DNA of 51,344 nucleotides from Intrasporangiaceae bacterium URHB0013. GTDB lineage: Bacteria > Actinomycetota > Actinomycetes > Actinomycetales > Dermatophilaceae. The position numbers were made by a program, and so were the translations under genes. Below, one piece after another: positions 4,276 to 50,925 of this stretch. The stretch is from positions 1-51,344 of the forward strand of contig JIBA01000005.1 of assembly GCA_000620545.1 (NCBI GenBank), written 5' to 3'. A model generated the notes under the pieces. The model searched no databases. It had not been told where the DNA came from and saw only the letters and a program-made list of their open reading frames with translations. The stretch's first letter is position 1, and every line of letters begins with the position of its first letter.

Positions 4276-5141
4276 TGGGCGCCGTCAGCCCCCTGGTCGT
4301 CGGCGAGCTCGAGCAGGTCACCGACGCCCTCTGCTACCACGGCGAGGGGCCGGTCTGGTCACCCACGTGGGGCGGCCTGCGCTGGGTCGACCTCCTCGCC
4401 GGAGACGTCCTGACGCTGCGCCGCGACGGCGCCGTCGACCGGATGCACGTCGGCGACGTCGCGGCGTTCGTCCGGCCGCGCGCCACGGGCGGCTGGGTGG
4501 TCGCGACCGAGCGCGGACTGGCGCGCGCGGACGAGCCGGACGGCATACCCACGCCGTGGTTCGACCTGTGGGAAGACGCGGCCGTCCGGATGAACGAGGG
4601 AGGCGTCGACAGCGAGGGACGCCTGTGGGCCGGGACGATGGGCTACGACCGCGTGCCCGGCAGTGCCACGCTCTACCGCGTCGACGCGACCGGCGACGTC
4701 GCGGTCCTGCTGCCCGACGTGACGATCTCGAACGGCATCGACCTCTCACCCGACCACCGTCTGGCCTACTACGACGACACCCCGAGCGGCCGCACGGACG
4801 TCTTCGACGTCGTCGCCGGCGAGCTCACGAACCGGCGCCCCCTCGTGACGCATGACGTCGGCCACCCCGACGGCCTCACCGTCGACAGCGCCGGCAACAT
4901 CTGGGTCGCGCTCAACGGCGCGGGCCGGGTCCGCTGCCACTCACCCGAGGGCGAGGTGCTCGCGGAGGTCACCGTTCCCGTCCGCCTCACGACGGCGTGC
5001 ACGTTCGGCGGCGACGACCTGCGCGACCTCTACATCACGACGTCCCGCGAGAACCTCCAGGACCCAGAACCCGAGGCGGGCGCCGTCTTCCGCGTCCGTG
5101 TCGCCGTGCCCGGCCAGCCGGTGCGGGCCTTCGCCGGCTGA
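4275..5141 (+). CDS. SMP-30/gluconolactonase/LRE-family protein
   Basis: 288 aa, the usual size for a single six-bladed beta-propeller of the SMP-30/regucalcin/YvrE family, which hydrolyses sugar lactones using one divalent metal. Metal-ligand motifs are in order: E24 in GEGPVW, the MNEGGVDSEGRLWAGTM segment, the ISNGID asparagine and the HPDGLTVD aspartate. No signal peptide is seen, so it is cytosolic. Start and previous stop overlap as TGATG, which implies coupling with the upstream 143-aa protein. Substrate cannot be told from sequence. A copy of CGGCATAC lies at 4541 and forces a rare ATA codon. Confidence 0.88.
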   Translation: MGAVSPLVVGELEQVTDALCYHGEGPVWSPTWGGLRWVDLLAGDVLTLRRDGAVDRMHVGDVAAFVRPRATGGWVVATERGLARADEPDGIPTPWFDLWEDAAVRMNEGGVDSEGRLWAGTMGYDRVPGSATLYRVDATGDVAVLLPDVTISNGIDLSPDHRLAYYDDTPSGRTDVFDVVAGELTNRRPLVTHDVGHPDGLTVDSAGNIWVALNGAGRVRCHSPEGEVLAEVTVPVRLTTACTFGGDDLRDLYITTSRENLQDPEPEAGAVFRVRVAVPGQPVRAFAG

Positions 5142-5199
5142 GCCCGTCCGAACGGCCGCGGCCGGCCGAGTACGTATGCCGTGTGCCCGGGTCCGGCGG

Positions 5200-6777
5200 T
5201 CAGCCGGAGTAGGTGATCCCGCCGTCCGAGGAGTAGCCGAAGGTGGCGACCGAACGGCCGGGGCGCGGCAGCCGGCCGGACGGCATACCCCCGTGGTCGC
5301 CGTCCCCTTCCTCGTCGTCCTCGGCCCCCACGCCGAGAAGGCTCCGGGTCAACCGCTGTGCGTCGGACATCAGCTCGTCCAGGGCGACGCCGAGGTGGTC
5401 GTCCGACGGCGGCTCGTCGGCAACGGCGGCGGCCAGCACCGCGCGGCGGACGAGCTCCTTGGCGAACGACGCCGTGGTGCCCTCGGCGCGGGCGGCCGCG
5501 GCCGAGATCGCCTCGGCGCCGAACAGGTGGCCACCGTAGAGCCGGAGCAGCTCGCGCCGCCCCTCGGCATCCGGCAGCGGGATCTCGGCGGCCAGGTCGA
5601 CGCGGCCCGGGCGCTGCGACAGGGCGACCTCGAGGTCCTCGACCCGGTTCGTCGTGAGGACGAAGGCCACGTCCGAGTCGGAGTCGAGGCCGTCTAGGGC
5701 GTCGAGCACCTCGAAGAGCAACGGTGAGGCGCCCATCGGCGCGAAGGAGCGGTCCTCGGCGACGAGGTCGCAGTCCTCGAGGACGACGATCGCCGGCTGG
5801 TGCGCGCGGGCGACCTTCGCGGCGTCGTGGATGAAGCGGAGCGAGCCACCGCTCAGCAGGACCGCAGTCGTGCCCGGTGTCGCCGAGAGCAGGTAGCGGA
5901 CGGTGTGCGTCTTGCCGGTCCCGGGTGGCCCGTAGAGCAGGACACCGCGCTTGAGGTGCTGGCCGTGCGCGACGAGCCGCTCCCGGTGCTCGCCCAGCCC
6001 GATGACGTGGCGCGCCACGCGGTCGAGGACGCCGTCCGGGAGCACGACCGCGGCCGCGTCGACCGACGGCCGTTCGATGAAGCTCACGCCGGCCATGCCC
6101 GGGCCGTAGGGGTCGGAGCCGAACGTCACGACCTGCCCCCGGATGACGCTCCGCTCGTCCATCAGCTCCTGGACCCGGGCCATGAGAGCGTCCGACACGA
6201 CGCGGTCCTGCGAGACGACCTCGATGCTCCCGGACTCGCGGCCGAACTGCCGGTTCATGCCCTGCTGGCGCACCGCGACCGGGTGACCGTCGAAGCGGAA
6301 GAGGCGGATCCCGGACGTCACGACCTGCCGCTGGTCGTCCTTGCCGGGGCCGGTCGGCATACGGTCGTAGTCCACCTGGCCGACCGACATGCCCGGGCCG
6401 TGGAAGTGCTGCACGAGGTCCCCGAGCGACATGTGGTGGCGCGCGTCGCCGGCGATTCCGATGACCGTGGCGTCCGGGTCGACGCCCGAGACCTCGGCGA
6501 GGGCGATGTCGGCGTCGACGAGACGGTGGGGCAGGACCGGCGCGGAGACGACGGCGAGCAGGTGCGGCTCGACCCCGAGGTGCTGGCGGAGGACCTCGGA
6601 GAGGCCCTGCCCACCGCCGGCGGGCGGCAGCTCGTCGAGGATCCGTCGCAGGACGGTGTGGAAGTCCGCGAGCAGTCCATGGGCCGTGTCGGGCGACGCG
6701 CTGGGCTCCGTGGCGGGGTCCGTGGTGGACGCCGTGCTCGCGTCCGTCGTGGTCGGGGTGGCATCCGTGGGGTCCAT
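5200..6777 (-). CDS. AAA+ ATPase, CDC48-like single domain
   Basis: 525 aa. A Thr/Ala-rich N-terminus and a roughly 250-residue domain of unknown role precede one AAA+ module: Walker A GPPGTGKT (283-290), Walker B VVLEDCD (331-337), then LTTNR (sensor 1) and RPGRVD (arginine-finger region). The layout resembles stand-alone actinobacterial ATPases related to the proteasome and CDC48 families, with a substrate-recognition N-domain. An in-frame ATG at 6804 is also possible; neither start has a good ribosome site. It converges with the SMP-30-like gene. The partner or substrate is unknown. Confidence 0.85.
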   Translation of the reverse strand: MDPTDATPTTTDASTASTTDPATEPSASPDTAHGLLADFHTVLRRILDELPPAGGGQGLSEVLRQHLGVEPHLLAVVSAPVLPHRLVDADIALAEVSGVDPDATVIGIAGDARHHMSLGDLVQHFHGPGMSVGQVDYDRMPTGPGKDDQRQVVTSGIRLFRFDGHPVAVRQQGMNRQFGRESGSIEVVSQDRVVSDALMARVQELMDERSVIRGQVVTFGSDPYGPGMAGVSFIERPSVDAAAVVLPDGVLDRVARHVIGLGEHRERLVAHGQHLKRGVLLYGPPGTGKTHTVRYLLSATPGTTAVLLSGGSLRFIHDAAKVARAHQPAIVVLEDCDLVAEDRSFAPMGASPLLFEVLDALDGLDSDSDVAFVLTTNRVEDLEVALSQRPGRVDLAAEIPLPDAEGRRELLRLYGGHLFGAEAISAAAARAEGTTASFAKELVRRAVLAAAVADEPPSDDHLGVALDELMSDAQRLTRSLLGVGAEDDEEGDGDHGGMPSGRLPRPGRSVATFGYSSDGGITYSG

Positions 6778-6846
6778 GGAGTGACGATAGGTGCCGCACG
6801 CCATGCGCAGGGGCAGGAGTGGCCGAGCCGGAGCGCCCCGGCGTTA

Positions 6847-6852
6847 TAGCCT
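6847..6852 (+). promoter_or_regulatory. -10 element of leaderless dcd
   Basis: TAGCCT ends six bases before the GTG of dcd, with no Shine-Dalgarno between them. The spacing puts the transcript start at or next to the start codon, as in leaderless actinobacterial mRNAs. Confidence 0.5.
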
Positions 6853-7437: not shown

Positions 7438-8297
7438 GCGCCGAGCCCGTCCCCGCCGACGAGTCCCCTGTCACCGACGAGCGCCCTGCTTCCGGCGAGG
7501 GCGCTGTCGTCGGGCAGGGCGCTGTCGTCGGCCAGGGCGCTGTCGTCGGCCAGGGCGCTGTCGTCGGCGAGGGCGCTGCCCCCGGCGGTCCCGGGGAGGG
7601 CGCGCTCGCGTCACTCGTCTGGGACACGCGCCCCGCCGGTGCGACCGTGGTCGTCCTCGTCATGCACGGCGGGGCCGTCGACGGACACGAGGCCAACCGT
7701 CCGTGGTCGCACAACGTCGCGCGCCTCGTCCCGTTCGCGCGCGCCCTGAGGAAGGTGCCCGGACCGATCGCCGTGGCCCGCCTGCGGTTCCGCGTCCGCG
7801 GCTGGAACGCAGACGCGATGCCGGTCGAGGACGCCAGGTGGGCGCTGGAACAGGTGCGGGCGGCATACCCCGGCGTCCCGGTGGCCCTCGTCGGTCACTC
7901 GATGGGCGGACGCGTCGCGATGTTCGTCGGCGACGACCCCGACGTGCGCCTCGTCGTCGGGCTGGCGCCGTGGGTCGAGCCGGGCGACCCGCGCCCCGGA
8001 GCCGGCACGCGCACCGTCCTGGTCCACGGCGACCGCGACGTCATCTGCTCGCTGGCCCGCACCCGCCAGGCCGTCGAGCAGATGCAGGCGGAGGGTCTCG
8101 ACGCCTCCCTCGTCCGTGTCGCCCGCGGCGACCACGCGATGCTCGTGCGTGCCCGGCTCTGGACCGCCCTCGTGACCGAGGTCGTCGAGGCGACCTTCGC
8201 GCACGAGCTCGGCGGGACCGGCGAGCCGCGATCCGGCCCGATCGGGGCCGTCGTGGCGCGGGTCGTCCACTCCGGGGGCGTCACGATCGACGTCTGA
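7434..8297 (+). CDS. alpha/beta hydrolase with Gly-Ala-Val repeat N-terminus
   Basis: 287 aa from a GTG that overlaps the dcd stop by four bases. Residues about 22-46 are a GAVVGQ repeat encoded by four tandem 18-bp units. The hydrolase fold follows: VLVMHGG (oxyanion region), GHSMGG with the nucleophile serine, VLVHGDRDV with the acid and GDHAML with the catalytic histidine. The catalytic triad looks complete. Substrate is unknown; coupling to dcd need not mean shared function. The repeat tract is a likely length-variable linker. Confidence 0.87.
7499..7570 (+). repeat. 18-bp tandem repeat, four copies, in frame
   Basis: Four near-identical units of GGGCGCTGTCGTCGGCCA (7499, 7517, 7535, 7553) encode GAVVGQ repeats at the N-terminus of the hydrolase. 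Because the unit is a multiple of three, copy number can change without a frameshift. Confidence 0.9.
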
Positions 8298-10171: not shown

Positions 10172-11025
10172 GCCTGAGCCTGATCTGGGGCTGGTTCACC
10201 GACCCGGCCAACTGGCAGGGCACCGACGGTGTGCCCAACCGCGTGCTCGAGCACCTGTTCTACACCGGCCTGACGCTGCTCATCGCACTCGTCATCGCGG
10301 TGCCGCTCGGCGCCTGGGTGGGCCACTCGGGTCGTCTGCGCTGGCTCGTCACCGGTGCCAACGCCGCCCGGGCCATCCCGACGCTGGGGCTGCTCTTCGC
10401 CGTGTCGATGTTCGTCGGGCCCCTCATCAAGAGCGACCTCGCGTTCGTCATCCCGAGCATCACCGTGCTCGTCCTGCTCGCCATCCCGCCGCTGCTGTCC
10501 GGCACGTATGCCGGCATCGACAGTGTCGAGCCGGCCGCGCGCGACGCCGCCCGCGGGATGGGCATGACCGGCTGGCAGGTGCTGTCGAAGGTCGAGGCGC
10601 CGTGCGCCCTGCCGCTCTTCCTCAGCAGCCTGCGCAGCGCGACCCTCCAGGTCATCGCCACCGCCACCATCGCGGCCTCCGTCAGCCTGGGCGGCCTCGG
10701 CCGCTACCTCATCGACGGACTCGCCTCGCGCGACTACGTCGAGATGGTCTGCGGGTCCATCCTCGTGGCACTCCTCGCGCTCGTCGCCGACGGCGTCCTG
10801 GCCGTGATCGAGAAGAGGGCCGTCTCACCGGGAATCTCCGGACGGGCCACGCGTGTTGCCCGTTCACGCGCACGAAACTCCGATCCCCACTCCGAACCCG
10901 ACTCCGACGGTGCAGACCGCACGGACCCCGACCCGCGGCAGGCCGCACTCGTCGGCTCCCGCAGCACCGGCCCCGTAGAGGCGACCGCCGCCACGGGCAC
11001 CCCATCCGAAAGGGACCGAACATGA
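10168..11025 (+). CDS. osmoprotectant ABC transporter permease (OpuCD-like)
   Basis: 285 aa. The N-terminal 215 residues are a BPD_transp_1 permease with about six membrane segments and an EAA-type loop (ARDAARGMGMTGWQVLSKVE). The last 60 residues, after VAVIEKRAVSPG-like sequence, are a polar Arg/Asp/Ser-rich cytoplasmic tail unusual for the family, with low-complexity composition. ATGA overlaps on both sides show tight coupling to the other transporter genes. Confidence 0.9.
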   Translation: MSLSLIWGWFTDPANWQGTDGVPNRVLEHLFYTGLTLLIALVIAVPLGAWVGHSGRLRWLVTGANAARAIPTLGLLFAVSMFVGPLIKSDLAFVIPSITVLVLLAIPPLLSGTYAGIDSVEPAARDAARGMGMTGWQVLSKVEAPCALPLFLSSLRSATLQVIATATIAASVSLGGLGRYLIDGLASRDYVEMVCGSILVALLALVADGVLAVIEKRAVSPGISGRATRVARSRARNSDPHSEPDSDGADRTDPDPRQAALVGSRSTGPVEATAATGTPSERDRT

Positions 11026-11954: not shown

Positions 11955-12044
11955 GCCGACGCACGCTGAACCGGCTACGGCCGGTCGGGTCGGTCCGGGC
12001 ACCTGCTGAGCGGCTGACGGCATACGACGGGTAGCGAGGACATC

Positions 12045-12413: not shown

Positions 12414-12545
12414 ACGTGTATGCCGTCCGCCCCGATCACGGGAACCGCGGCTGGACTCCTTCGCTTCCGTGCCACCGGCGACGTCCGCATGGCGATCGGC
12501 CCCGGCGTGGGGCGCCGGGACCGGATCAGGATGCAGCCGTGGAGG

Positions 12546-15264: not shown

Positions 15265-15307
15265 GGCGGCCGCGCCCGCGCCCCGGCCACCACACGGCAT
15301 ACGCACA

Positions 15308-15337: not shown

Positions 15338-15369
15338 CTGCGTCGCCGAAGGTATGCCGTCCGGCGTGG

Positions 15370-19038: not shown

Positions 19039-19797
19039 ATGAGCACCGCGCCACAGGTCCACCATGAGACCAGGGCGGCCGAGAAGCCGCTGACGCTCGT
19101 GCGCGGTGACGCCGCGCCTGAGGTGCTGCAGGTGCCACAGGTGCCACAGGTGCCACAGGTGCCGGCAGCGTCCACCGTGTCCGACGGCGCTCCAGCCGGG
19201 CGTTCGTATGCCGGCCCGCTCGGTCTCGTGCGCAAGCTCGCCGACCGCGTCCGCGAGGACGTCGACGGCGCGATCGAGCGGGACCCCGCGGCCAACTCCA
19301 GGGTCGAGCTGGTCCTGACGTCCCCCGGACTGCACGCCATCTGGGCGCACCGCGGCCTGCACGAGCTGTGGAAGCGCCCGGGTGGACGGCTTCCGGCGCG
19401 GGTGCTCGCCACGGTGGCGCGCTCCGTCACCGGGGTCGAGATCCATCCGGCGGCCCGGCTCGGACGACGGTTCTTCATCGACCACGGCATGGGTGTCGTC
19501 ATCGGCGAGACGGCCGAGGTCGGCGACGACGTCATGCTCTACCACGGCGTGACGCTGGGTGGCCGGTCCATGGAGCACGTCAAGCGCCACCCCACGGTGG
19601 GCAACCGTGTCACGATCGGCGCCGGCGCTCGCGTGCTCGGTCCGATCCACGTCGGTGACGACGTCCAGATCGGCGCCAACTCCGTGGTGGTCAAGGACGT
19701 CCCGGCCGGTGCTGTCGCCACCGGCATCCCGGCGGTCATCCGCTTCCCCAAGAGCGATGCCACCAACCAGTGGCTCGACCCGGCGATGTACATCTGA
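19039..19797 (+). CDS. cysE: serine O-acetyltransferase with repeat N-terminal extension
   Basis: 252 aa. The catalytic part starts near residue 55 and has the left-handed beta-helix hexapeptide repeats: [37 protein letters not shown] and [12 protein letters not shown]. It acetylates L-serine to feed CysK. The family length from GLVRKLADR to the end matches short-type CysE. Residues 1-54 are an extension holding a VPQ repeat encoded by four 9-bp units. The end residue is isoleucine (MYI), as CysE C-termini insert in the CysK active site. AGGAG precedes the ATG. Confidence 0.95.
19129..19164 (+). repeat. 9-bp tandem repeat, four copies, in cysE
   Basis: CAGGTGCCA is repeated four times (last copy CAGGTGCCG) and encodes QVP units in the CysE N-terminal extension. 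Copy number could change in frame. Confidence 0.9.
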
Positions 19798-22297: not shown

Positions 22298-22593
22298 GCG
22301 CCCACCCGCGCGCGCAACCGGTCGAACTCCTCGCGCGTCACGACGCCGGTCGCATAGAGGTGCTCGAGCGCCAGCAGCGACCTCTGCGGGTCGGCGGTGG
22401 GCGCGTGAGGCGCCGCGGGCGGTGGTGGTGGCGGTGGTGGCGGCGGTGGTGGCGGTGGCGTCGGCGGTGGCGGGGCGGCTTGGGGAACGTGGGAGGCGGC
22501 ATACGCCTGCGCCGGCGTCAGCCGCCCTCCGTAGTAGGGCACGTTGCCGGTGATGCCGGTCATCCGCAGCTGACGGGGTACCAGAAGAACCAT
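22294..22593 (-). CDS. SHOCT-domain protein with polyproline linker
   Basis: 99 aa. The C-terminus (LLALEHLYATGVVTREEFDR) is a SHOCT domain, a short helical pair found at the ends of many proteins and thought to mediate oligomerisation. A linker of about 16 prolines precedes it, from a GGTGGC-rich tract at 22417-22477. The N-terminus (NVPYYGGRLTPAQAY) is short and tyrosine-rich. Start could be the ATG at 22593 or the in-frame ATG ten codons later. Coupled to the DUF6325-like gene. Confidence 0.72.
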   Translation of the reverse strand: MVLLVPRQLRMTGITGNVPYYGGRLTPAQAYAASHVPQAAPPPPTPPPPPPPPPPPPPPAAPHAPTADPQRSLLALEHLYATGVVTREEFDRLRARVGA

Positions 22594-23161: not shown

Positions 23162-24145
23162 GTGACCAGAGATTCCGGCTCGGATCCCGTGCCCGACACC
23201 GCCGAGATCCTGAGCCGGCTGGCGCCCCTCCAGCTTCCCGAGGTGAGCCCGCTGATCCTGCGCGGCCAGCGCTTCGACGCCGCGTCGCCCGCTGTCATGG
23301 CGATCGTCAACCGCACCCGCGACTCCTTCTTCAGCGGTAACCGCCATGCCGACCTGGAGTCGGCGAAGACTGCCTTCGTCGACGCGGTCGAGCTGGGCGC
23401 CGACCTCGTCGACGTCGGCGGCGTGCGCGCCGGACAGGAGGGTGAGGTTGTCGACGCCGACGAGGAGATCCGACGCGTCGTGCCGTTCCTCCAGTGGGCG
23501 CGGGCGGAGCGCCCCGACGTGCTCCTCAGTCTCGACACCTGGAGGTCGGCGGTGGCCCGTGAAGCGGAGGGCGTCGTCGATCTGGTCAACGACACGTGGG
23601 CTGGGCACGACCGGGGGCTGGTCCACGTCGCATCCGACATCGGCGCCGGATACGTCATCTCACATACCGGCGGCCTTCCGCCTCGGACCGATCCGGTCGA
23701 CGTCTCCTACGGCACCGAGCCCCTCGACGTCGTGCGGGACGTCGTGCGCACCCTCGCCGACGGTGCCCGTGCCGCCGAGCAGGCCGGCATACCTCGTGAG
23801 CGCATCCTCGTCGATCCGACCCTCGACTTCGGCAAGACCACGGCACACTCGCTGGAGGTCCTGCGGCACACGGCCGACGTCGTTGCACTGAACTACCCTG
23901 TGCTGCAAGCTTTGTCGCGCAAGGACTTCGTCGGCGAGTCGCTCGACCTTCCCCCTGAGGAGCGCCTCGAGGGCTCACTCGCAGCCACGGCGGTCGCGGC
24001 CTGGCTCGGTGCCACCGTCTTCCGTGCGCATGACGTCCGGGCCACCCGACGGGTGGTCGACATGGTGGCCACGGTCCGCGGGGACCGGCCTCCACGCCTC
24101 GCTCTCCGAGGGGTGCGTCGTGACGACGTGGCGAACGGTTCGTGA
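23162..24145 (+). CDS. folP2: dihydropteroate synthase-family protein (FolP2-like)
   Basis: 327 aa. TIM-barrel motifs of the DHPS family are visible: MAIVNRTRDSFFSGN, GADLVDVGGVRAG, LSLDTWRS and ILVDPTLDFGK. Actinobacteria often hold two copies; this sequence is divergent at the usual pABA and pterin sites (VNRTRDSFF in place of VTPDSFSDGG), as in mycobacterial FolP2, for which DHPS activity has not been found in M. leprae. So it may not make folate. The GTG start at 23162 sits at the predicted transcription start. Confidence 0.85.
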   Translation: MTRDSGSDPVPDTAEILSRLAPLQLPEVSPLILRGQRFDAASPAVMAIVNRTRDSFFSGNRHADLESAKTAFVDAVELGADLVDVGGVRAGQEGEVVDADEEIRRVVPFLQWARAERPDVLLSLDTWRSAVAREAEGVVDLVNDTWAGHDRGLVHVASDIGAGYVISHTGGLPPRTDPVDVSYGTEPLDVVRDVVRTLADGARAAEQAGIPRERILVDPTLDFGKTTAHSLEVLRHTADVVALNYPVLQALSRKDFVGESLDLPPEERLEGSLAATAVAAWLGATVFRAHDVRATRRVVDMVATVRGDRPPRLALRGVRRDDVANGS

Positions 24146-29236: not shown

Positions 29237-29676
29237 CCCTTCGCGCGCGGTGCCGCCGGCACCACGTCGTGCCGGTGTGAAGCTGCTCCCCACGTGGAGC
29301 CGGGGCAGGCCCGGATCGGGCTGCAGGTGTCCACATGCTGAACAGATGACGTGATGACTTCAAGGTACGCGCCGCCGCAAGCGCAGTTCACCCCCAGCGG
29401 GCGCCCCAGCGGTGAGACGGCTCACACCACGGTCGGGCCGCAAGAAATACGACAATTCTCTGTCGGTTTCTTGCAGGACTTTCACTACTCCTCCGTAGGA
29501 CCCGGACCGGTCGGGAGGGGCGTGCGGAGCCGATCACGTATGCCGCGTGCGCACCCTTGTGGGTCGGCGCGGCGGGGGAACCAGGCCGCGTCCGCATGGC
29601 CGGCGCGGGGCCGATTTCGTGGTGGCGGACCCGAGGCGCTAAGGTAACTTTTCGTTCCTCCGCGTGACGGAACGAC
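29237..29676. promoter_or_regulatory. pckG and tRNA-Arg upstream region with AT-rich palindrome
   Basis: 440 bases with no gene. It contains an interrupted palindrome at 29440-29474: GCAAGAAA, two bases, CGACA, a 6-nt centre ATTCTC, TGTCG, one base, TTTCTTGC. A GTATGCCG motif lies at 29538 and TAAGGTAACTT near 29640 may be part of the tRNA-Arg promoter. The palindrome is a candidate operator for pckG. Confidence 0.5.
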
Positions 29677-34726: not shown

Positions 34727-34835
34727 CGGCATACCACCGGGTGGCGACGGCCCCCGGCTGACATCCCTTGCGCCCGCGAGGACGCGGCGGTTGGGTGTGG
34801 TGAGACCGTCCACCGCGCACGCCGGGAGGCCACCC

Positions 34836-36479
34836 ATGACCACCGCACAGCCCGCCACGCTCGACCCGAGCCTCTCGCACACCCGCGGTGAGACCGACAC
34901 CCCTCTCCTCGAGACGACGATCGGTGACAGCTTCGACGCCACCGCCGAGCGGTTCGCTGACCGCGAGGCGCTCGTCGACGTCGCGCAGGGCAAGCGGTGG
35001 ACGTATGCCGAGCTGCGGGCCGACGTGGACCGGCTGGCTCGCGCGCTGATGGCCACCGGTGTCCGGACGGGCGACCGCGTCGGCATCTGGGCACCGAACT
35101 GCTCGGAATGGACGCTCGTGCAGTACGCGACGGCCAAGATCGGGGCGATCCTCGTCAACATCAACCCGAGCTATCGGGCGCACGAGCTCCAGTACGTCCT
35201 GGATCAGGCCGGCATCTCGACACTCATCGCGGCGGAGTCGTTCAAGTCCAGCAGCTACCGGCAGATGGTGGACGAGGTGCGGGACGCGGTCGACGGGCTC
35301 GAGCGGGTCGTCTACATCGGCACGTCGGACTGGGAGGAGGTCCTCGCTCGCGCCGACGAGGTGGCTGCCGAGGAGCTCGTGCGTGTGCAGTCGGGACTCT
35401 CGAACACCGAGCCGATCAACATCCAGTACACCTCAGGCACCACGGGATTCCCCAAGGGCGCGACGCTCAGCCACCGCAACATCCTCAACAACGGCTACTT
35501 CGTCGGCGAGCTGTGCGACTACACCGAGGCCGACCGGGTCTGCATCCCGGTGCCCTTCTACCACTGCTTCGGCATGGTCATGGGCAACCTCGCGTGCACG
35601 ACGCACGGCGCCTGCATGGTGATCCCGGCGCCAGGCTTCGACCCGGCGGCGACGCTCCGGGCGACGCAGGACGAGAAGGTCACCTCGCTCTACGGCGTGC
35701 CGACGATGTTCATCGCCGAGTGGAACCTGCCCGACTTCGCGTCGTACGACCTGTCGACCGTGCGGACCGGGATCATGGCCGGATCCCCTTGTCCCGCAGA
35801 GCTGATGAAGAAGCTCATTGCGGCCGGCATCGAGGAGATGACGATCTGCTACGGCATGACGGAGACGTCGCCGGTGTCGACGCAGAACCGCACGAACGAC
35901 ACGTTCGAGCAGAAGGTCGGCACGGTCGGTCGCGTGGGACCGCACCTCGAGATCAAGATCGTCGACCCCGTGACGGGAGAGACGCTCCCGCGCGGCACTG
36001 CTGGTGAGTTCATGACCAAGGGCTACTCGGTGATGCTCGGCTACTGGGAGCAGCCCGACAAGACGGCCGAGGCCATCGAGGACGGCTGGATGCACACCGG
36101 CGACATCGGCGTCATGCACGACGACGGTTACGTCGAGATCACCGGCCGCATCAAGGACATGGTCATCCGCGGTGGCGAGAACGTCTACCCGCGCGAGATC
36201 GAGGAGTTCCTCTACACGCACCCGGACATCCTCGACGCGCAGGTCATCGGCGTCCCGGACGAGAAGTACGGCGAGGAGCTCTGCGCGTGGCTGCGGATGA
36301 AGGACGGTGCGACGCCACTGACCGCCGAGTCGTTGCGGGAGTTCTGCACCGGACAGCTCGCGCACTACAAGATCCCGCGCTACGTCGAGATCGTCGACGA
36401 GTTCCCGATGACTGTGACGGGCAAGATCCGGAAGGTGGAGATGCGCGAGACCACGGCGAAGAAGCTCGGACTCGTTTGA
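34836..36479 (+). CDS. fadD: fatty-acyl-CoA/AMP-forming ligase (FadD-like)
   Basis: 547 aa. The AMP-binding motif YTSGTTGFPKG, FYHCFGMVMGNL, YGMTETSP, GWMHTGD, RIKDMVIRGGENVYP and the C-terminal lysine in TVTGKIRK define an adenylate-forming acyl-CoA synthetase, close to the medium/long-chain FadD35 type. It activates a carboxylic acid to its CoA thioester through an acyl-AMP. GGGAGG precedes the ATG. Chain-length preference cannot be read off. A motif pair and terminator-like hairpin lie downstream. Confidence 0.93.
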   Translation: MTTAQPATLDPSLSHTRGETDTPLLETTIGDSFDATAERFADREALVDVAQGKRWTYAELRADVDRLARALMATGVRTGDRVGIWAPNCSEWTLVQYATAKIGAILVNINPSYRAHELQYVLDQAGISTLIAAESFKSSSYRQMVDEVRDAVDGLERVVYIGTSDWEEVLARADEVAAEELVRVQSGLSNTEPINIQYTSGTTGFPKGATLSHRNILNNGYFVGELCDYTEADRVCIPVPFYHCFGMVMGNLACTTHGACMVIPAPGFDPAATLRATQDEKVTSLYGVPTMFIAEWNLPDFASYDLSTVRTGIMAGSPCPAELMKKLIAAGIEEMTICYGMTETSPVSTQNRTNDTFEQKVGTVGRVGPHLEIKIVDPVTGETLPRGTAGEFMTKGYSVMLGYWEQPDKTAEAIEDGWMHTGDIGVMHDDGYVEITGRIKDMVIRGGENVYPREIEEFLYTHPDILDAQVIGVPDEKYGEELCAWLRMKDGATPLTAESLREFCTGQLAHYKIPRYVEIVDEFPMTVTGKIRKVEMRETTAKKLGLV

Positions 36480-36565: not shown

Positions 36566-36633
36566 GTATGCCGTCCCGCCGCCCGCACGGCATACCTGCG
36601 GCTGTCGGATGGGCCAACCCATCCGACAACCGC
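36566..36633 (+). terminator. fadD downstream hairpins including a motif pair
   Basis: GTATGCCGT (36566-36574) and its inverse ACGGCATAC (36587-36595) can pair across 12 bases. Next is a perfect 11-bp hairpin (TGTCGGATGGG, 36603-36613, with 36618-36628), extendable by GCGG/CCGC with one mismatch. One or both end the fadD transcript. Confidence 0.7.
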
Positions 36634-38362: not shown

Positions 38363-38498
38363 GCCTTCGGGGAGCCTGTGGTGGCCGCCCGGCTGAGAGC
38401 ACGTGCGCCCGTGGTCCGGGCCACACGGCATACGCAAGCGGTGGAGCCCGCCGAAACGGTGGCGCGGGCACCCGGCCCGCGCAAATAGACTTGCCGTC

Positions 38499-41177: not shown

Positions 41178-42596
41178 TCAGATCCCGTGGGTGCGGGCGA
41201 CGAGGTCCCGGTAGCGCGCCACGACGTCGGCGTGCGCCTGTTCGTCACCGGGCGGGACGGCATACTCCGAGTCGACGTCGAGGCGCCACGTGGGCGGGTC
41301 CTGTTCTCCGGACAGGGCCCAGGCGGCCTGTCGTGCGGCGCCGACGCCGACGTACTCGGCCGGCGCCGGCACCACGACGGGGGCGCGGAAGAGGTCCGGT
41401 GCGAGCTCGCGGACCGCGCGCGAGGCCGCCGCTCCGCCGATGAGCAGGACGCGTCGGACCTCGACGTCGTGGTCGCGCAGCGCGTCGACACCGGCGACGA
41501 GGTTGCACAGCATCCCTTCCACGGCAGCGCGGGCGAGGTTCTCGGGTGTCGCGTTCGAGCGCGTGAGCCCACTCAGCGTGCCGGTGGCGTCGGGCAGGTC
41601 GGGGGTCCGCTCGCCGTCGAGGTAGGGCAGGAGGCTGAGGCCGCCGGCCCCCGGACCTGCTTGCAGCGCAAGCCGGTCCAGCTCCGCGAGGTCGACACCC
41701 AGCATCGAGGCGGCGGCCGTCAGCACGCGAGCCGCGTTGAGGGTGCACATGAGCGGGAGGTGGTGGCCCGTCGCGTCGGCGAAGCCGGCGATGGCACCGG
41801 TCTCGTCGCGAATGGCCGAGCGGTGCGGGGTGAAGACCGTCCCGCTCGTACCGAGCGACACCACGACGTCGCTCGGCTCGAGCGTCAGGCCGAGGGCGGC
41901 GCCCATGTTGTCGCCCGTACCGGCGGCGACGAGCAGGTCGTTCGCGGTACGTCCTGCCGCGGCGGCCGGTGCGAGCACCTGCGGCACGTCGATGACCCGG
42001 CCGAAGGATCGCTCGAGCAGGTCGAGGCGGTAGTCGTCGTCGGCCGCCGACCAGTAGCCGGTCCCGGACGCGTCTCCACGGTCGGTGGTCCAGCGCTCGA
42101 AGCCGCTGCCCTGCTGGAGGATCCGTCCGGTCAGCCAGTCGTGCGGGAGGACCACCCGTGCGACGCGGGCGGCGTTGTGCGGCTCGTGCTCGGCGAGCCA
42201 GCGCAGCTTCGTCACGGTGAAGCTCGCGACGGGCACCAGGCCCACGGCGTCGACCCACGCGGCGACACCCCCGAGCTCCTCCGTCAGGTCGCGGGCGGCC
42301 CCTGCGCTGCGGGTGTCGTTCCAGAGCAGTGCGTCGCGCACGACACGGTCGTCCTCGTCGAGCGTGACCATGCCGTGCTGCTGGCCACCCACGGCGAGGG
42401 CGGCGACGCCGTCGAGGATGCCGCCGCTGCTGGCCTGCTGGTACGCCTCCCACCAGCGGTCCGGGTGCACCTCGGTGCCGTCGGGGTGCGGGGCCCGTGC
42501 CGTGCGCACCACCTGTCCCGTCGCGGCGTCGCAGACGACGATCTTCGTCGACTGGGTCGAGCTGTCGACCCCTGCGACGAGAACGCGGTCGTTCAT
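41178..42596 (-). CDS. xylB: xylulokinase
   Basis: 472 aa. The FGGY kinase features are in order: [15 protein letters not shown] (phosphate-1), GGQQHGM, the LWNDTRS ribulose/xylulose loop, LPHDWLT, SLGTSGT (phosphate-2) and [12 protein letters not shown]. It phosphorylates D-xylulose to xylulose 5-phosphate for the pentose phosphate pathway. No xylose isomerase or transporter is beside it, so it may serve another xylulose source or be regulated elsewhere. The ATG is at 42596 with GGAGGA just upstream. Confidence 0.92.
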
Positions 42597-42900: not shown

Positions 42901-44466
42901 GTGCAGATCGGTGTCCCCCGTGAGACCCGCGCCCGAGAGACACGTGTCGCCGCGACGCCCAAGACCGTCGAGCAGCTCGTCGCGCTGGGCTATGACGTCG
43001 CCGTCGAGCGTGGAGCGGGAGAGCTGGCGAGCTTCTCCGACGAGGCGTATGCCGTCGCGGGCGCTCGCGTCGTCACCGCCGATGAGGCGTGGGGCTCGCC
43101 GATCGTCCACCAGGTCAACGCGCCCTCCGACGAGGCGATCGCGCGGCTCCGGCCGGGCACCGTCCTCATCTCCCTCATGGCGCCGGCCATCAGTCCGGAC
43201 CTCGTCGAGAAGCTGCGTGCAGCCGGAGTCACCGCGATGGCGATGGACGCGGTCCCGCGCATCAGCCGGGCGCAGTCGCTGGACGTCCTGTCGTCGATGG
43301 CCAACATCGCCGGCTACCGCGCCGTCATCGAGGCCGCTCACGAGTTCGGCTCCTTCTTCACCGGCCAGGTCACGGCGGCCGGCAAGGTGCCACCTGCCAA
43401 GGTGCTCGTCGCGGGGGCCGGCGTCGCCGGGCTCGCAGCCATCGGCACGGCCCGTTCGCTCGGGGCCATCGTCCGGGCGACCGACGCCCGCGCCGAGGTG
43501 GCCGAGCAGGTCGAGTCGATGGGTGCCGACTTCCTCGCTGTCCAGATTCCCGAGGTCGATGCCGCCGCCGCGTCGAGCGACGGCTACGCCAAGGAGATGG
43601 GGGAGGAGTACAACCGGCGCGCCGCCGAGCTGTATGCCGCCCAGGCCCCCGACGTCGACATCATCGTCACGACGGCGCTCATCCCCGGACGCCCTGCGCC
43701 ACGACTCATCACCGGTGCGATGGTCGCCACGATGAAGCCCGGCTCGGTCATCGTCGACATGGCCGCGGCCAACGGTGGCAACGTCGAGGGTGCGGTCGCC
43801 GACGAGCTCGTCGTCACCGACAACGGCGTGACGATCATCGGCTACACGGACCTCGCGGCGCGGCTGCCCACGCAGGCGTCGCAGCTCTACGGCACGAACC
43901 TCGTCAACCTCATGAAGCTTGTGACGCCGGGCAAGGACGGTCAGCTCGTCCTCGACTTCGACGACGTCGTGCAGCGGAACATGACGGTCGCCCGTGACGG
44001 GGAGCTGCTCTGGCCCCCGCCGGCGATCCAGGTGAGCGCGGCCCCCGTGGCGCAGACGGCCGCCGGCAAGCGCTTGGCCAAGGAGCCCGAGCCACCGAGG
44101 GACCCGCGGCGCCGATACGCCGGGATGGCCATCGGTGCGGTCGTCTTCGCGGTGGTCGCGGCCGTCTCGCCGCCGAGCTTCCTCGGCCACTTCACGGTCT
44201 TCGCGCTCGCGGTCGTCATCGGCTACTACGTCATCGGCAACGTCCACCACGCGCTGCACACGCCCCTGATGTCGGTCACGAACGCGATCAGCGGCATCAT
44301 CATCGTCGGCGCCCTGCTCCAGCTCGGCTCAGCCGGCTCGATCGGGGGCACGAAAGGCGTCGTCATCATGGTGCTGGGCTTCGTGGCCGCGCTGCTGGCG
44401 AGCATCAACATCTTCGGTGGGTTCACCGTCACCCGCCGCATGCTGACGATGTTCCGGAAGGGCTGA
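42901..44466 (+). CDS. pntA: NAD(P) transhydrogenase subunit alpha
   Basis: 521 aa from a GTG with AAGGAG six bases upstream. Residues 1-385 are domain I, which binds NAD(H): [41 protein letters not shown] and the [13 protein letters not shown] segment. The last 125 residues are four membrane helices of domain II. Having both in one chain matches the E. coli-like PntA layout rather than split PntAA/PntAB. With PntB it couples proton entry to NADPH formation from NADH. Confidence 0.95.
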
Positions 44467-44472: not shown

Positions 44473-45861
44473 ATGGACACGGCACTCATCCAGGCGGCAT
44501 ACATCGTCGCTGCGCTGCTCTTCATCATGTCGCTCGCCGGGCTGTCGAAGCACGAGACCGCGCGCGAGGGCAACGTCCTCGGCATGGTCGGCATGGGGAT
44601 CGCTCTCGTGGCCACGCTGTGGCTCTCCCTGCGTGGTGCGGCGTGCTCGGCCTGGCTGCTCATCGCCTTCGCGATGGTCGTCGGCGCCGCCATCGGCATC
44701 GCTCGTGCGCGCAAGGTCGAGATGACGGGCATGCCCGAGCTCATCGCCATGCTGCACTCGTTCGTCGGGGCGGCGGCGGTGCTTGTCGGCATCAACACGT
44801 TCGTCGCCACGTCCGATGCCGTCGGGGTCGAGGGTGAGGCGGTCCACCTCGTCGAGATCTTCCTCGGTGTCTTCATCGGGGCCGTGACGTTCACGGGCTC
44901 GATCGTCGCGTTCCTCAAGCTGTCGGCGCGCATCTCGAGCAAGCCGCTCATGCTGCCCGCCCGACACTGGCTCAACCTCGCTGCGCTGGTCGTGTCCGCC
45001 GGCCTGCTCGGGTGGTTCGTGGCGGCGGACTCGATCGTGCCGCTGCTCGTCATGACCGCGATCGCGCTGGCGTTCGGCTGGCACCTCGTCGCCTCGATCG
45101 GCGGGGGGGACATGCCCGTCGTCGTCTCGATGCTCAACAGCTACTCGGGCTGGGCAGCCGCCGCGGCGGGCTTCATGCTCGGCAACGACCTGCTCATCGT
45201 CACCGGGGCGCTCGTCGGCTCGTCCGGTGCGTACCTGTCGTACATCATGTGCAAGGCCATGAACCGGTCGTTCGTCTCGGTCATCGCCGGCGGCTTCGGG
45301 TCCGACGGGACCGTGTCCGACTCCGACGTCGACTACGGCGACCACCGCGAGACGAACGCGGCCGAGGTCGCCGACCTGCTCAAGAACGCGTCGACGGTCG
45401 TCATCACGCCCGGCTACGGCATGGCGGTGGCCCAGGCCCAGTACCCCGTCGCGGACCTCACCTCGAAGCTGCGCGAGCGTGGCGTCGACGTGCGGTTCGG
45501 CATCCACCCGGTCGCAGGCCGCCTCCCCGGCCACATGAACGTCCTGCTCGCGGAGGCGAAGGTGCCGTACGACATCGTCCTCGAGATGGACGAGGTCAAC
45601 GACGACTTCCCCGCCACCGACGTCGTGCTCGTCATCGGCGCCAACGACACCGTCAACCCCGCCGCCGCCGAGGACCCGACCTCGCCGATCGCCGGCATGC
45701 CGGTCCTCGAGGTGTGGAACGCCAAGGACGTCATCGTGTTCAAGCGCTCGATGAACGCCGGCTACGCCGGGGTCCAGAACCCGCTCTTCTTCCGCGACAA
45801 CTCCGCGATGCTCTTCGGCGACGCCAAGGAACGCGTCGAGGACATCATCAAGGCCCTCTGA
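44473..45861 (+). CDS. pntB: NAD(P) transhydrogenase subunit beta
   Basis: 462 aa. About eight or nine membrane helices (residues 5-260) are followed by domain III, which binds NADP(H): [35 protein letters not shown] and [12 protein letters not shown] are the signature motifs. It starts six bases past the pntA stop and needs PntA to function. A 40-bp perfect palindrome lies downstream and separates it from the convergent permease gene. Confidence 0.97.
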
Positions 45862-45982: not shown

Positions 45983-47479
45983 TCAGGGGACCGCATCACG
46001 TTCCGCCTCGGTCCACTTGTCCCCGGTGGCCAGCCTGCTGTGCTGGCGCGAGTAGAGGAAGTAGATGACGAAGCCGAGAACCATCCAGACGATGAAGCGA
46101 AGCCACGTCTCGAGGCTGAGGTTGAGGATCAGGTAGAAGCACATCGCCGCCGAGAGCCACGGGACCCACGGGTTGCCCGGCACCTTGAACGAGCGCTTGA
46201 GGTCGGGTCGCTTCTTGCGCAGGATCGGCACGGCGAGGGACACGAGGACGAAGGCCGCCAGCGTCCCGATGTTCACCATCTCCTCGAGCGTGCCGATCGG
46301 CGTGATGCTCGCGGCCACGGCAACGGCGGCTCCGATGATCAGGGTCAGCTTCACGGGGGTGCCCGTGTTGGGGTTGGTGACGCCCAGGCCCGGGGGCAGG
46401 AGCCGGTCGCGGCTCATCGCGAAGGTCACGCGCGTCGCGCCGATGATGAGCGTCATGACCACGGTCGTCAGACCTGCCACCGCGCCGGCCGAGATCAACG
46501 TCGCATAGCCGTCCTTGCCGACAGCGACGAAGGCGTTGGCGAGAGCGGCCTTCGGGTCGATCTCGCTGTACTTCTGCATGCCCGTGATGACGAGGGAGAC
46601 GGCAACGTAGAGGATCGTGCAGATGACGAGCGAGCCGATGATGCCCCGGGGGAGGTCGCGCTGCGGGTTCTTGGCCTCCTCGGCCGTGGTCGCGACGACG
46701 TCGAAGCCGATGTAGGCGAAGAAGACGAGCGCGGCCGCCGACATGATGCCGAGCACGCCGAACGTGGCTGGGGTCACCCCCGTGATGAGCTGTAGGACGG
46801 GTGCGTGGATCCCCTCGGAGCCCTTGGCGCCGGGCGCTGACGGAGGGATGAAGGGCGTCCAGTTGTCGCGGTTGATGAAGCCGATGCCCGCGATGATCAC
46901 GAAGAGGACGATGAACAGCTTGATCGCAACGAGGACCAGGTTGACCCGGAGCGACTCCTTGATCCCCTTCGCGACGAGCAGGGTCAGGCCGGCCACGAGG
47001 ACGAAGGCGGGAAGGTCGAAGTGCCATCCATCGGCTGGGCCCAGCGACGCCGGCCAGGTGATGCCGAGCTGATCGAGCAACGTGACGAAGTAGGTGGACC
47101 AGCCCTGGGCGACGACGCTGGCGCCGAGCATCAGCTCGAGGAGCAGGTCCCAGCCGATGGCCCAGGCGACGATCTCGCCCAAGGTGGCGTAGGAGAACGT
47201 GTAGGCCGAGCCGGACACCGGCACGGTGGAGGCGAACTCTGCGTAGCAGAGAGCGGCCAGACCGCACACCACGGCACCGAGGATGAAGGAGTAGACGACC
47301 GACGGGCCGGCATACTGCTGGGCCGCCCGTCCGGTCACGGTGAAGATGCCGGCGCCGATGATGACGCCGATGCCGAAGACCGTGAGGTCGAGCGCCGACA
47401 GGCGCCGTTTCAGGTGGTGGTCTGCTTCGTCCGCAGCGGCCAGGGACTGCTCGACAGACTTGGTGCGGAAGACACTCAT
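45983..47479 (-). CDS. APC-family amino-acid permease (CAT/YfnA-like)
   Basis: 498 aa and about 12-14 membrane helices. The first helix motif GIGVIIGAGIFTVTGRAA, GSAYTFSYATLGEIVAWAIGW and FFAYIGFDVVATTAEE are typical of cationic-amino-acid/YfnA-type transporters. It imports an amino acid with protons; basic amino acids are the usual substrate for this branch, but that is only inferred. It converges with pntB. Confidence 0.9.
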   Translation of the reverse strand: MSVFRTKSVEQSLAAADEADHHLKRRLSALDLTVFGIGVIIGAGIFTVTGRAAQQYAGPSVVYSFILGAVVCGLAALCYAEFASTVPVSGSAYTFSYATLGEIVAWAIGWDLLLELMLGASVVAQGWSTYFVTLLDQLGITWPASLGPADGWHFDLPAFVLVAGLTLLVAKGIKESLRVNLVLVAIKLFIVLFVIIAGIGFINRDNWTPFIPPSAPGAKGSEGIHAPVLQLITGVTPATFGVLGIMSAAALVFFAYIGFDVVATTAEEAKNPQRDLPRGIIGSLVICTILYVAVSLVITGMQKYSEIDPKAALANAFVAVGKDGYATLISAGAVAGLTTVVMTLIIGATRVTFAMSRDRLLPPGLGVTNPNTGTPVKLTLIIGAAVAVAASITPIGTLEEMVNIGTLAAFVLVSLAVPILRKKRPDLKRSFKVPGNPWVPWLSAAMCFYLILNLSLETWLRFIVWMVLGFVIYFLYSRQHSRLATGDKWTEAERDAVP

Positions 47480-48743: not shown

Positions 48744-49733
48744 GTGACGCGAACGCCAGCGTATGCCGCCGAGCTGCGCGCCGCGCTGACCCGCGCCGTG
48801 CGTGGGATCGACGAGCGTGAGCTGGTTCGGGCGACCGAGGCGCTCGTGGCGCGCTATCGGTCGGTCGCCCCCGCGCCGGTGCCGATCCTCGCGTCCCGGG
48901 TGCACGTGATGGCCTACGCGGCCTACCGGATGCCGGCGACGCACGCGGCTCTCGCGCGCGTGATGGACGAGCTCGCGGACCGGGGCCTGGCGCCCCGCTC
49001 GCTGCTCGACCTCGGCGGCGGCACGGGCGCCGCGGCGTGGGCGGCGGCAGGCACCTTCGATTCGCTCAAGTCGATCACGGTCCTCGACCAGGTCGAGGAC
49101 GCCCTCGTCCTCGGACGCGAGCTCGTCGCCGATGCGCCGTCAGGGGTCCTGGCGAGGACGACGTTCCGGCAGGCTGTCGCCGGGTCCTGGCCCGACGTCG
49201 GGGCCGACCTCGTGACGGTGTCGTATGTGCTCAGCGAGCTCGACGAGGCACAGCAGGAAGCGCTCGTCGCCGATGCGATGCGTCGGGGTCGCATCGTCGT
49301 CATCGCTGAGCCCGGCACGCCGGACGGGTACACCCGCGTGCTCCGCGTCCGGTCGGCTCTCCTCGCTGCTGGCTGGACCCTCGTCGGACCGTGCCCGCAC
49401 GCCGCGGACTGCCCTCTCGGACAAGGCGACTGGTGTCACTTCGCGGCCAGGGTGAGCCGCTCCGCGGAGCATCGTCGCCTCAAGGGCGCGGAGCTGTCGT
49501 ACGAGGACGAGAAGTTCTCGTGGCTCGCCGCCGCGGCGCCGGGCGTCCTCGAACCGCAGGCAGCGCACGCGCGCTCGGGCCGCATCCTCCGCCATCCCCT
49601 GAAGCGCAAGGGCTTCGTCGAGTTCCAGGTGTGCCGGCCAGACGGGACGGCCGGCCGCGAGGTGATCTCGAAGAAGGCAGGTGAGCGCTACCGGAAGGCG
49701 CGCGACGCCGAGTGGGGCGACGTGCTGCCCTGA
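48744..49733 (+). CDS. Rsm22-like small ribosomal subunit methyltransferase
   Basis: 329 aa. SAM-binding motif LLDLGGGTGAAAWAA, then VSYVLSEL and the cysteine set CPHAADCPLGQGDWCHF, which binds a metal or Fe-S cluster in Rsm22 proteins, followed by KGAELSYEDEKFSWLA. Rsm22 proteins act in small-subunit rRNA methylation or assembly in mitochondria and bacteria. The C-terminal lysine/arginine-rich part suits RNA binding. The GTG start is leaderless. Confidence 0.88.
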   Translation: MTRTPAYAAELRAALTRAVRGIDERELVRATEALVARYRSVAPAPVPILASRVHVMAYAAYRMPATHAALARVMDELADRGLAPRSLLDLGGGTGAAAWAAAGTFDSLKSITVLDQVEDALVLGRELVADAPSGVLARTTFRQAVAGSWPDVGADLVTVSYVLSELDEAQQEALVADAMRRGRIVVIAEPGTPDGYTRVLRVRSALLAAGWTLVGPCPHAADCPLGQGDWCHFAARVSRSAEHRRLKGAELSYEDEKFSWLAAAAPGVLEPQAAHARSGRILRHPLKRKGFVEFQVCRPDGTAGREVISKKAGERYRKARDAEWGDVLP

Positions 49734-49765
49734 CCCGGCGGCATACGCAAGCATGGCGGCAGTGC

Positions 49766-50404
49766 TCACACGACGCCGTAGAGGCGGTCGCCGGCGTCGC
49801 CGAGGCCGGGGACGATGTAGCCCTTCTCGTTGAGCTTCTCGTCGATGGTGCCGAGCACGACCTTGACGGGGATGTCGCTGTCGGAGAGCTCGTCCTCGAG
49901 GTGCTTGATGCCCTCGGGCGCCGCGAGCAGGCAGACGGCCGTGATGTCGCGGGCCCCCCTCGCGGTGAGGTAGTCGATCGCCATGACCAGCGTGCCGCCG
50001 GTCGCGAGCATCGGGTCGAGGATGAAGACCTGGCGGCCCGTGAGGTCGTCGGGCAGGCGGTTCGCGTACGTCGAGACCTCGAGGGTCTCCTCGTTGCGGA
50101 TCATGCCGAGGAACCCCACCTCGGCGCTCGGGAGCAGCTTGACCATGCCGTCGAGCATCCCGAGACCGGCGCGCAGGATGGGGACGATGATCGGCTTGGG
50201 GTTGGAGAGCTTGATGCCCGTGGTGGGCGCGACCGGCGTCTCGATCTCGAAGCGCTCGACGCGGACGTCGCGCGTGGCCTCGTAGGCCAGGAGCGTGACG
50301 AGCTCCTCGGCGAGGCGACGGAACGTGGGGCTGTCGGTCCGCTTGTCGCGCAGGTAGGTCAGCTTGTGGGCGATGAGCGGGTGGTCTGCGACATGGACGT
50401 CCAT
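49766..50404 (-). CDS. upp: uracil phosphoribosyltransferase
   Basis: 212 aa, the standard size. [14 protein letters not shown], the PRPP motif [11 protein letters not shown] and the C-terminal [15 protein letters not shown] are intact. It salvages uracil to UMP. The ATG is followed back on the minus strand by TAAGTT ending eight bases away, so it is probably leaderless. It is divergent from tadA across only 17 bases. Confidence 0.97.
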
Positions 50405-50421
50405 GGGTGGAAACTTAGCGC

Positions 50422-50925
50422 GTGGCGAAGAGATCCGAGACCCCCGGCAAGGGCGTCGTGCCGACGCCGGAGACGTATGCCGCCTGGCTCGGCCAGGCCC
50501 TCGACCTGGCGACGGCGACCGCCGGCTCACAGGACGTGCCGGTCGGCGCTGTCGTCCTCGACCCCGACGGCGCAGCCGTCGGTCGCGGTCGCAACGTGCG
50601 CGAGGAGCTGGGCGACCCGACGGGGCATGCGGAGGTGGTCGCCCTGCGCGAGGCGGCGCAGTCCTTGGGCTCGTGGCGGCTCGACGGCTGCACGCTCGTC
50701 GTGACGCTGGAACCCTGCGTCATGTGCGCGGGGGCGGCCATGGCGGCGCGCGTCGAGCGGGTCGTCTTCGGCGCCTGGGACGTCAAGGCAGGGGCGTGCG
50801 GGTCGGTCTGGGACCTCACCCGCGACCCGCTCGCGACGCACACCGTGGACGTTGTCGGAGGTGTGCGGGCGGAGGAGTCGGCGGCCCTCTTGGTCGATTT
50901 CTTCGAGGGCCGAAGGCTCGGGTAG
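50422..50925 (+). CDS. tadA: tRNA adenosine deaminase TadA-like
   Basis: 167 aa. Cytidine-deaminase-fold zinc site: [11 protein letters not shown] (His and catalytic Glu) and [10 protein letters not shown] (two Cys). [10 protein letters not shown] at the front and [15 protein letters not shown] match TadA, which converts A34 of tRNA-Arg(ACG) to inosine; that tRNA is at 29677. The GTG is 17 bases from the divergent upp start. Confidence 0.93.

Follow-up and report, generated by a model that had tools for sequence, protein, structure and literature searches.

Strong preference for short uptake words is described for two bacterial families, both of them diderm (PMC7811141). In the parts of the literature cited here, the uptake signals of Neisseriaceae and Pasteurellaceae, the DNA uptake sequence (DUS) and the uptake signal sequence (USS), are linked to terminator hairpins (PMC1852404), form dialects in the case of DUS (PMC3630211), are attributed to point mutation and molecular drive (PMC7811141) and are reduced in genomic islands (PMC7371117), and a pilin has been proposed as receptor (PMC12616744). 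Here, we analyzed the octamer CGGCATAC (GTATGCCG on the opposite strand) in the first 51,344 nucleotides of contig JIBA01000005.1 of Intrasporangiaceae bacterium URHB0013 (assembly GCA_000620545.1); this whole stretch is called the window. We propose, by analogy with the systems above, that Terrabacter and much of the Intrasporangiaceae probably use a DNA uptake sequence with CGGCATAC as its core.

Like the DUS, CGGCATAC is a short non-palindromic word present in about a thousand or more copies, located within genes and accompanied by several dialects in a single family; DUS also form inverted pairs at gene ends and are less frequent in islands, two features for which CGGCATAC gave a mixed picture (PMC3630211, PMC1852404, PMC7371117). 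However, the words are unrelated, the hosts of CGGCATAC are monoderm actinobacteria, the source genome has no PilM match, and no ComP-like receptor is known for CGGCATAC. In addition, DUS dialects are described as all sharing a CTG core (PMC3630211, PMC12616744), whereas CGAAGGGGG, an alternative word presented below, has no evident core in common with CGGCATAC. The Pasteurellaceae USS resembles CGGCATAC in its density of about one per kb, in its evolution by point mutation and in having more than one type (two main ones) among its hosts, whereas the terminator hairpins described for the USS are matched less clearly (PMC7811141, PMC1852404, PMC12616744). In contrast, the USS runs into AT-rich flanks, and the receptor proposed for it is a minor pilin of the type IV class (PMC12616744); the only pilus locus seen in the source genome was of the Flp/Tad kind.

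In the actinobacterium Micrococcus luteus, DNA uptake reportedly works through ComEA, ComEC and Flp pili, for which the source genome also has genes, although the cited part of that report mentions no uptake sequence for M. luteus (PMC6370729). In open-licence literature, preprints excluded, we found no report of an uptake sequence in monoderm bacteria and no joint mention of Intrasporangiaceae with natural transformation or of Terrabacter with an uptake sequence. Among the matches listed in the same literature, none for CGGCATAC or GTATGCCG concerned a genomic motif by its title, and none concerned actinobacterial uptake words by its title or the start of its abstract.

Abundance of the octamer

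The sequence-only reading of the window had counted 28 exact copies of CGGCATAC, and all 28 were recovered where it had placed them (16 on the plus strand and 12 on the minus strand; Table 1). The over-representation that it claimed was borne out: 100 dinucleotide shuffles of the window contained 0.57 copies on average and 3 at most, and an order-3 Markov model, under which CGGCATAC ranked first among all 8-mers of the window, predicted 1.45. The source genome (4,567,713 bases) belongs to Terrabacter (g1 among the genera of our family set), in the NCBI family Intrasporangiaceae, which we take to be Dermatophilaceae in GTDB naming. It contained 1,988 copies (1,011 forward and 977 reverse), or one per about 2,300 letters, compared with 248 copies of a control with reversed letters; the genome-wide count thus lay far above chance expectation. 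We infer that this control is inflated where GGC following CGGCATAC creates the control word, which makes the contrast conservative.

Flank preferences were weak in the source genome (A or G before the octamer, G after it), and differed elsewhere, with CG before it in genera g2 and g158, and CA before and CC after it in g142. One recent repeat family with shared flanks was therefore ruled out as the source of the copies, since the flanks differ. Chance or composition was ruled out by the shuffles, the Markov model, the genome count and the codon shuffles described below.

Distribution in the family and the class

We counted CGGCATAC in 186 genomes of the family, representing 53 genera, and defined strong carriers as genomes with 400 or more copies (below, g numbers denote genera and G numbers genomes). 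We found 106 strong carriers in 30 of the 53 genera (404 to 4,724 copies), 14 genomes with 150–399 copies, and 66 genomes in 22 genera with fewer than 150. Three genera (g3, g145 and g153) each combined strong carriers with a species near background. A class sample comprised 296 genomes, 6 from the same family and 290 from outside it, and no comparable enrichment was observed in these 290, where the maximum was 386 copies in 7.5 Mb (control, 176). Similarly, 64 of 80 loci, taken by title as lying outside the family, held 46 copies in 1.24 Mb (reversed control, 21).

Loci of named species were in line with these counts. The octamer was frequent in those of Humibacillus xanthopallidus (13 copies, 21.8 kb), Ornithinimicrobium sp. 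F0845 (11 copies, 21.1 kb) and Arsenicicoccus bolidensis (13 copies, 20.5 kb); the locus of Humibacillus sp. DSM 29435 had a single copy, and no copy lay in the DNA examined from A. piscis, Mobilicoccus caccae or Intrasporangium flavum. One stretch of the weak carrier G326 (G326:C1:1-20000) held 13 copies in 20 kb, compared with 2–5 in five other stretches of that genome; it may have been imported or may be a remnant.

Alternative words in relatives

In genomes lacking the octamer, we sought words that were over-represented, dispersed and near gene ends. Of the 22 genera that include a genome with fewer than 150 copies, 10 were read over 20 kb or more, and the other 12 were covered by counts of CGAAGGGGG-, GACGCCGTAC-, CGGCATAC- and GAGCCGGTCG-type patterns only. 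The word CGAAGGGGG reached 797–1,939 copies in every genome of g139 and g5 (19 of 19) and no more than 80 in any of the remaining 167 family genomes. Of its 43 copies in 120 kb of g139, 34 were genic, compared with a mean of 5.0 and a maximum of 11 in 100 codon shuffles. Two 20-kb stretches of g5 held 0 and 6 copies; whole-genome counts imply about 11–12 each.

A second word, GACGCCGTAC, occurred 770 times in G376 (g145), which has only 19 copies of CGGCATAC; two g145 congeners have 3,681 and 1,062 copies of CGGCATAC. A weaker excess of GACGCCGTAC (97–218 copies) was found in g147, g120 and parts of g117 and g118. Its core, CGCCGTAC, occurred in G376 at 0.49 per kb in genes, 2.25 in convergent gaps (4 copies), 0.74 in tandem gaps and 0.51 in divergent gaps. 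This profile is close to that of CGGCATAC in the source DNA, on small counts (4 versus 10 convergent copies). CGCCGTAC exceeded codon shuffling by less (61 versus 15.7), and the dialect of G376 is less clean because GGCGTCGTAC was as over-represented there as GACGCCGTAC.

We accordingly observed clade-specific dialects, as in DUS and USS systems, namely CGAAGGGGG in g139 and g5 and GACGCCGTAC in G376. That words are replaced lineage by lineage points more strongly than any other observation to a signal for self-recognition. A fourth word, GAGCCGGTCG, prompted by DNA of g157, was rejected because it occurred 12 to 557 times in carriers and non-carriers alike, family-wide at most about fivefold over its own control; the word test was therefore able to reject a candidate. 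Weak candidates, GCCGCTAC (G405), CGGCAACG (Arsenicicoccus piscis G301) and words of g4, g118, g124 and g163, did not stand out.

Replacement between relatives also bears on the possibility that CGGCATAC is a methylation or self-marking motif (of an orphan methylase, a restriction system or another modification), since modification specificities change fast between relatives. However, CGGCATAC is non-palindromic with eight contiguous bases, which is unusual for methylases, and restriction sites are usually avoided rather than accumulated. A possible parallel is HIP1 of cyanobacteria, an octamer of extremely high frequency that has been connected with orphan methylases by its authors; HIP1 (GCGATCGC) is palindromic, whereas CGGCATAC is not its own reverse complement (PMC4390886). 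We consider this explanation quite improbable.

Conservation among congeners

We aligned the octamer copies with seven Terrabacter congeners (10.7 to 36.1 kb each), and found that 70 of 92 aligned cells, which are not independent because they share congener history, retained CGGCATAC intact. Among the 22 altered cells, 15 differed by a single substitution. Coding copies were intact in 35 of 48 orthologous cells, compared with 0.31 for phase-matched flanks, and intergenic copies in 35 of 43, compared with 0.16 for flanks. The Tyr codon TAT was retained in 24 of 30 cells within the word and in 4 of 31 outside it. Thus, as described for DUS and USS, CGGCATAC is gained and lost by point mutation and is conserved at orthologous sites.

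Placement in genes and intergenic gaps

In the window and source contig C1 together, 84 of 111 copies were genic, compared with a mean of 8.7 and a maximum of 17 in 200 runs of synonymous-codon shuffling within each gene. It had been claimed that coding copies force rare TAT and ATA codons; the TAT part holds, as 54 of the 141 TAT codons in the 219 called genes of this DNA lay inside GTATGCCG. Densities per kb in the source DNA were 2.48 in convergent gaps (10 copies), 0.89 in tandem gaps, 0.33 in divergent gaps and 0.39 in genes; the corresponding values in Terrabacter congeners were 2.32, 1.30, 0.74 and 0.31. In Terrabacter, CGGCATAC thus prefers gene ends and is densest between converging genes. 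In the window, 15 copies were genic and 13 intergenic (5 in convergent, 6 in tandem and 2 in divergent gaps). The earlier figure of 12 intergenic copies was therefore one too low by our gene caller, whereas the accompanying claim of 11 copies near gene ends stood, since 11 of the 13 lie in gaps holding a gene 3' end.

Adjacent copies no more than 40 bp apart formed 17 pairs, 13 in opposite and 4 in the same orientation, compared with 4.1 expected in total. Among the 13 inverted pairs, 12 read GTATGCCG then CGGCATAC, and 11 of those were spaced 21–23 bp. Several congener inverted pairs look orthologous by position, so that independent cases may number four to six. The segment 15285–15370, in which the pair 15295/15352 flanks a strong hairpin, folded more stably than its shuffles (z -4.85).

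The gene-end enrichment and inverted pairs in Terrabacter are what would be expected if CGGCATAC were nothing more than part of transcription terminators or a habit of composition. However, most copies are genic and far exceed codon shuffling, and relatives use other words; we regard this explanation as hardly credible.

Along contig C1, copies were more even than random at a 5-kb scale (2 of 500 random runs were as even), less clearly so at 2 kb (29 of 500), and not at 1 kb (59 of 500) or 10 kb (84 of 500), and the largest gap free of CGGCATAC was short (8 of 500). The USS of H. influenzae is described as unevenly spread (PMC7811141). Even spacing, together with strong conservation in congeners, is consistent with a binding site of a chromosome-organizing or segregation protein, dense and even along the chromosome. 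However, the evenness was not significant at 1 or 10 kb, and word replacement in sister genera and within g145 would require such a system to be rewritten. In addition, the samples of G455 described in the next section showed no replichore skew, which argues against a site like the FtsK-orienting sites (KOPS). We judge this possibility improbable.

Strand balance

The forward fraction of CGGCATAC was 0.469–0.526 in each of the 106 carriers, in agreement with the nearly equal strands claimed for the window (16/12) and found genome-wide in the source genome. Source contig C1 carried 36 plus and 46 minus copies. In seven 20-kb samples of G455, a single contig with its origin unmapped, we counted 70 plus and 71 minus copies, and no sample was strongly skewed. 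The thinly sampled alternative words gave 18 plus and 12 minus copies (CGAAGGGGG, four stretches of G344) and 46 plus and 28 minus copies (CGCCGTAC, seven stretches of G376). Because of the lack of skew in the G455 samples, Chi- or KOPS-like polarity is disfavoured; KOPS are polar from origin to terminus.

We further considered whether CGGCATAC is a Chi-like site for a helicase-nuclease other than RecBCD (AdnAB or AddAB), which would protect self DNA in break repair, with the word changed by lineage. Chi of E. coli is likewise a frequent non-palindromic octamer (PMC3784561). The lean of CGCCGTAC to one strand and the moderate prophage depletion of CGGCATAC reported below fit this explanation, and dialects could track enzyme drift. 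However, the G455 samples lack skew, and a one-way signal would not be expected to accumulate between converging genes or to form inverted pairs at gene ends. RecC (PF04257) had no match in 8 of 9 Terrabacter genomes, the source genome included, although it was present in 89 of the 186 family genomes. A Chi-like site is, in our judgement, unlikely. Among the alternatives named with the earlier claim, a RecBCD-type Chi and a polar segregation site are both disfavoured, by the missing RecC match and the missing skew.

Competence machinery

The source genome encodes ComEA (SLBB and helix-hairpin-helix domains) and ComEC, together with a Flp/Tad locus containing Flp pilins, TadE, CpaB, a TadZ-like ATPase, TadA, TadB and TadC, with Tad names assigned from domains. 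Competence genes, as looked for in a host of DUS or USS systems, are thus present in a carrier, and by analogy with M. luteus a route of DNA uptake exists in principle. We profiled ComEC, PilM, T2SSF and RecC over the 186 family genomes; ComEA stood beside ComEC, by motif pattern, in 27 of 30 loci of carriers and non-carriers.

Two observations concern the pilus genes themselves. In a TadB-like protein (9005–10993 of its stretch), the T2SSF domain is preceded by a von Willebrand factor A domain. The CGGCATAC carrier G378 is the only one of the 186 genomes in which PilM matched over nearly its full length; strong T2SSF matches lie about 7 kb from this match, and together they form a type IV pilus-like cluster.

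Proposed interpretation as a DNA uptake sequence

Judged from sequence features, the density, strand symmetry, conservation, gene-end preference (in Terrabacter) and, most of all, word replacement of CGGCATAC fit uptake sequences better than the alternatives, and our confidence in an uptake function comes mainly from the conservation and the dialects. Of the uptake-sequence profile that the sequence-only reading had claimed, abundance, strand symmetry, gene ends in Terrabacter and conservation stood, and dialects joined them; preferential uptake itself is a prediction from these features.

In the proposed mechanism, a receptor on the cell surface, probably one of the minor pilins of the Flp/Tad pilus, would bind double-stranded DNA containing CGGCATAC in either orientation, and the bound DNA would pass to ComEA and ComEC. 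As kin DNA was taken up with this bias and recombined again and again, CGGCATAC would be raised and maintained at many sites. Coding needs would limit its spread, and gene ends would take extra copies, some as inverted pairs. If receptor specificity drifted, the genome might gradually be rewritten in a new word, which would give rise to dialects.

Several observations weigh against this interpretation. The enrichment in convergent gaps was clear in Terrabacter only; in other carriers, the small counts available favoured tandem or divergent gaps, and little gap enrichment was evident in the sample of g153 (0.28 per kb in genes; 1 convergent and 2 tandem copies). One-mismatch variants were mostly not over-represented, whereas DUS with one mutation are reported to be numerous in Neisseriaceae (PMC3630211). 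Only 1 of the 13 inverted pairs was in the source DNA (289 kb) and 12 were in congeners (354 kb), and the window pair 36566/36588 folded no better than shuffles (z -0.97).

Prophage depletion was modest as well. We examined 15 of 26 HK97 capsid matches in strong carriers, leaving out the rest, many of them on short contigs, and with prophage borders unmapped. Within 6 kb of these capsid genes there were 39 copies, compared with 83.4 expected from genome means; the depletion was only about twofold and uneven, with G458 and G325 at normal density. The capsid neighbourhood on source contig C12 had about 14.7 kb without CGGCATAC.

The family-wide gene profiles also count against the interpretation. 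ComEC was found in 180 and T2SSF (Tad) in 183 of the 186 genomes, and because they are common to carriers and non-carriers they cannot explain who has the word; the presence of ComEC, ComEA or Tad did not discriminate carriers. By profile search PilM matched in 7 of the 186 genomes and not in the source genome, and a PilM-type type IV pilus was accordingly rejected as the uptake route there. No receptor candidate was found with ComEC, PilM and T2SSF as the only such profiles applied family-wide.

There is, we think, an even chance that sequence-specific uptake originated independently in monoderm actinobacteria, probably run by a Flp/Tad pilus, and that its dialects radiated across the family, among them an unrelated word of nine bases and a change of word inside a single genus. 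If CGGCATAC is an uptake sequence, genome-wide self-recognition for DNA exchange would have arisen again in a third, distant family. The 186 genomes would form a natural experiment in which the receptor could be found by matching word to protein, and the words would tell which soil bacteria can swap genes with which. If CGGCATAC is instead a Chi-like site or a modification mark, so fast a turnover of words among relatives would be a surprise in that setting as well.

Copies and other features of the window

Table 1. Copies of CGGCATAC in the window, with genes and gaps assigned by a home-made gene caller
Position	Strand	Location	Remark
4541..4548	+	within gene 4275-5141	
5174..5181	-	convergent gap 5142-5199	
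5281..5288	+	within gene 5200-6777	
6355..6362	+	within gene 5200-6777	changed in 3/3 aligned congeners
7861..7868	+	within gene 7434-8297	
10506..10513	-	within gene 10147-11025	
12018..12025	+	tandem gap 3' of gene 11022-11954	
12418..12425	-	convergent gap 12351-12545	
15295..15302	+	convergent gap 15265-15369	flanks strong hairpin with copy 15352
15352..15359	-	convergent gap 15265-15369	opposite orientation to copy 15295
19206..19213	-	within gene 19039-19797	kept in 5/5 aligned congeners
22497..22504	+	divergent gap	
23785..23792	+	within gene 23189-24145	kept in 6/6 aligned congeners
27273..27280	+	gap 27214-27391	minus-strand genes either side
29538..29545	-	divergent gap	
34727..34734	+	immediately 3' of gene 34037-34726	
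35003..35010	-	within gene 34836-36479	
36566..36573	-	3' of gene 34836-36479	inverted pair, left arm; kept in 5/5 aligned congeners
36588..36595	+		inverted pair, right arm; starts 22 bp apart
38426..38433	+	tandem gap 38312-38498	kept in 6/6 aligned congeners
41258..41265	+	within gene 41178-42596	
43047..43054	-	within gene 42901-44466	
43632..43639	-	within gene 42901-44466	
44495..44502	+	within gene 44473-45861	
47308..47315	+	within gene 45983-47479	
48761..48768	-	within gene 48744-49733	
49739..49746	+	convergent gap 49734-49765	
50475..50482	-	within gene 50422-50925	

Positions 1–3736 are a contig-end element adjoining tRNA-Gly (3663–3736), with a tyrosine integrase gene at 2219–3535 on the minus strand whose product has a Phage_integrase domain and a weak Lsr2 DNA-binding match (28.9 bits; cut-off, 26.9). 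The octamer had been said to be absent from this element. No copy was found there, but the absence is uninformative because the element is too short, with about 1.6 copies expected at the genome density.

Three further repeats were observed in the window. Soon after tRNA-Ser (26408–26497), four direct copies of a repeat with AAGTTTGGCCTTT occur at 32-bp spacing (26576–26684). Within the called gene 19913–20896, GTCTCGTCGCCC is repeated eight times at a 27-bp pitch (20451–20651). Finally, the palindrome GTGGCCAC has 12 sites between 5527 and 48276, about fivefold over the order-3 Markov model (24 versus 5.1 with both strands counted).

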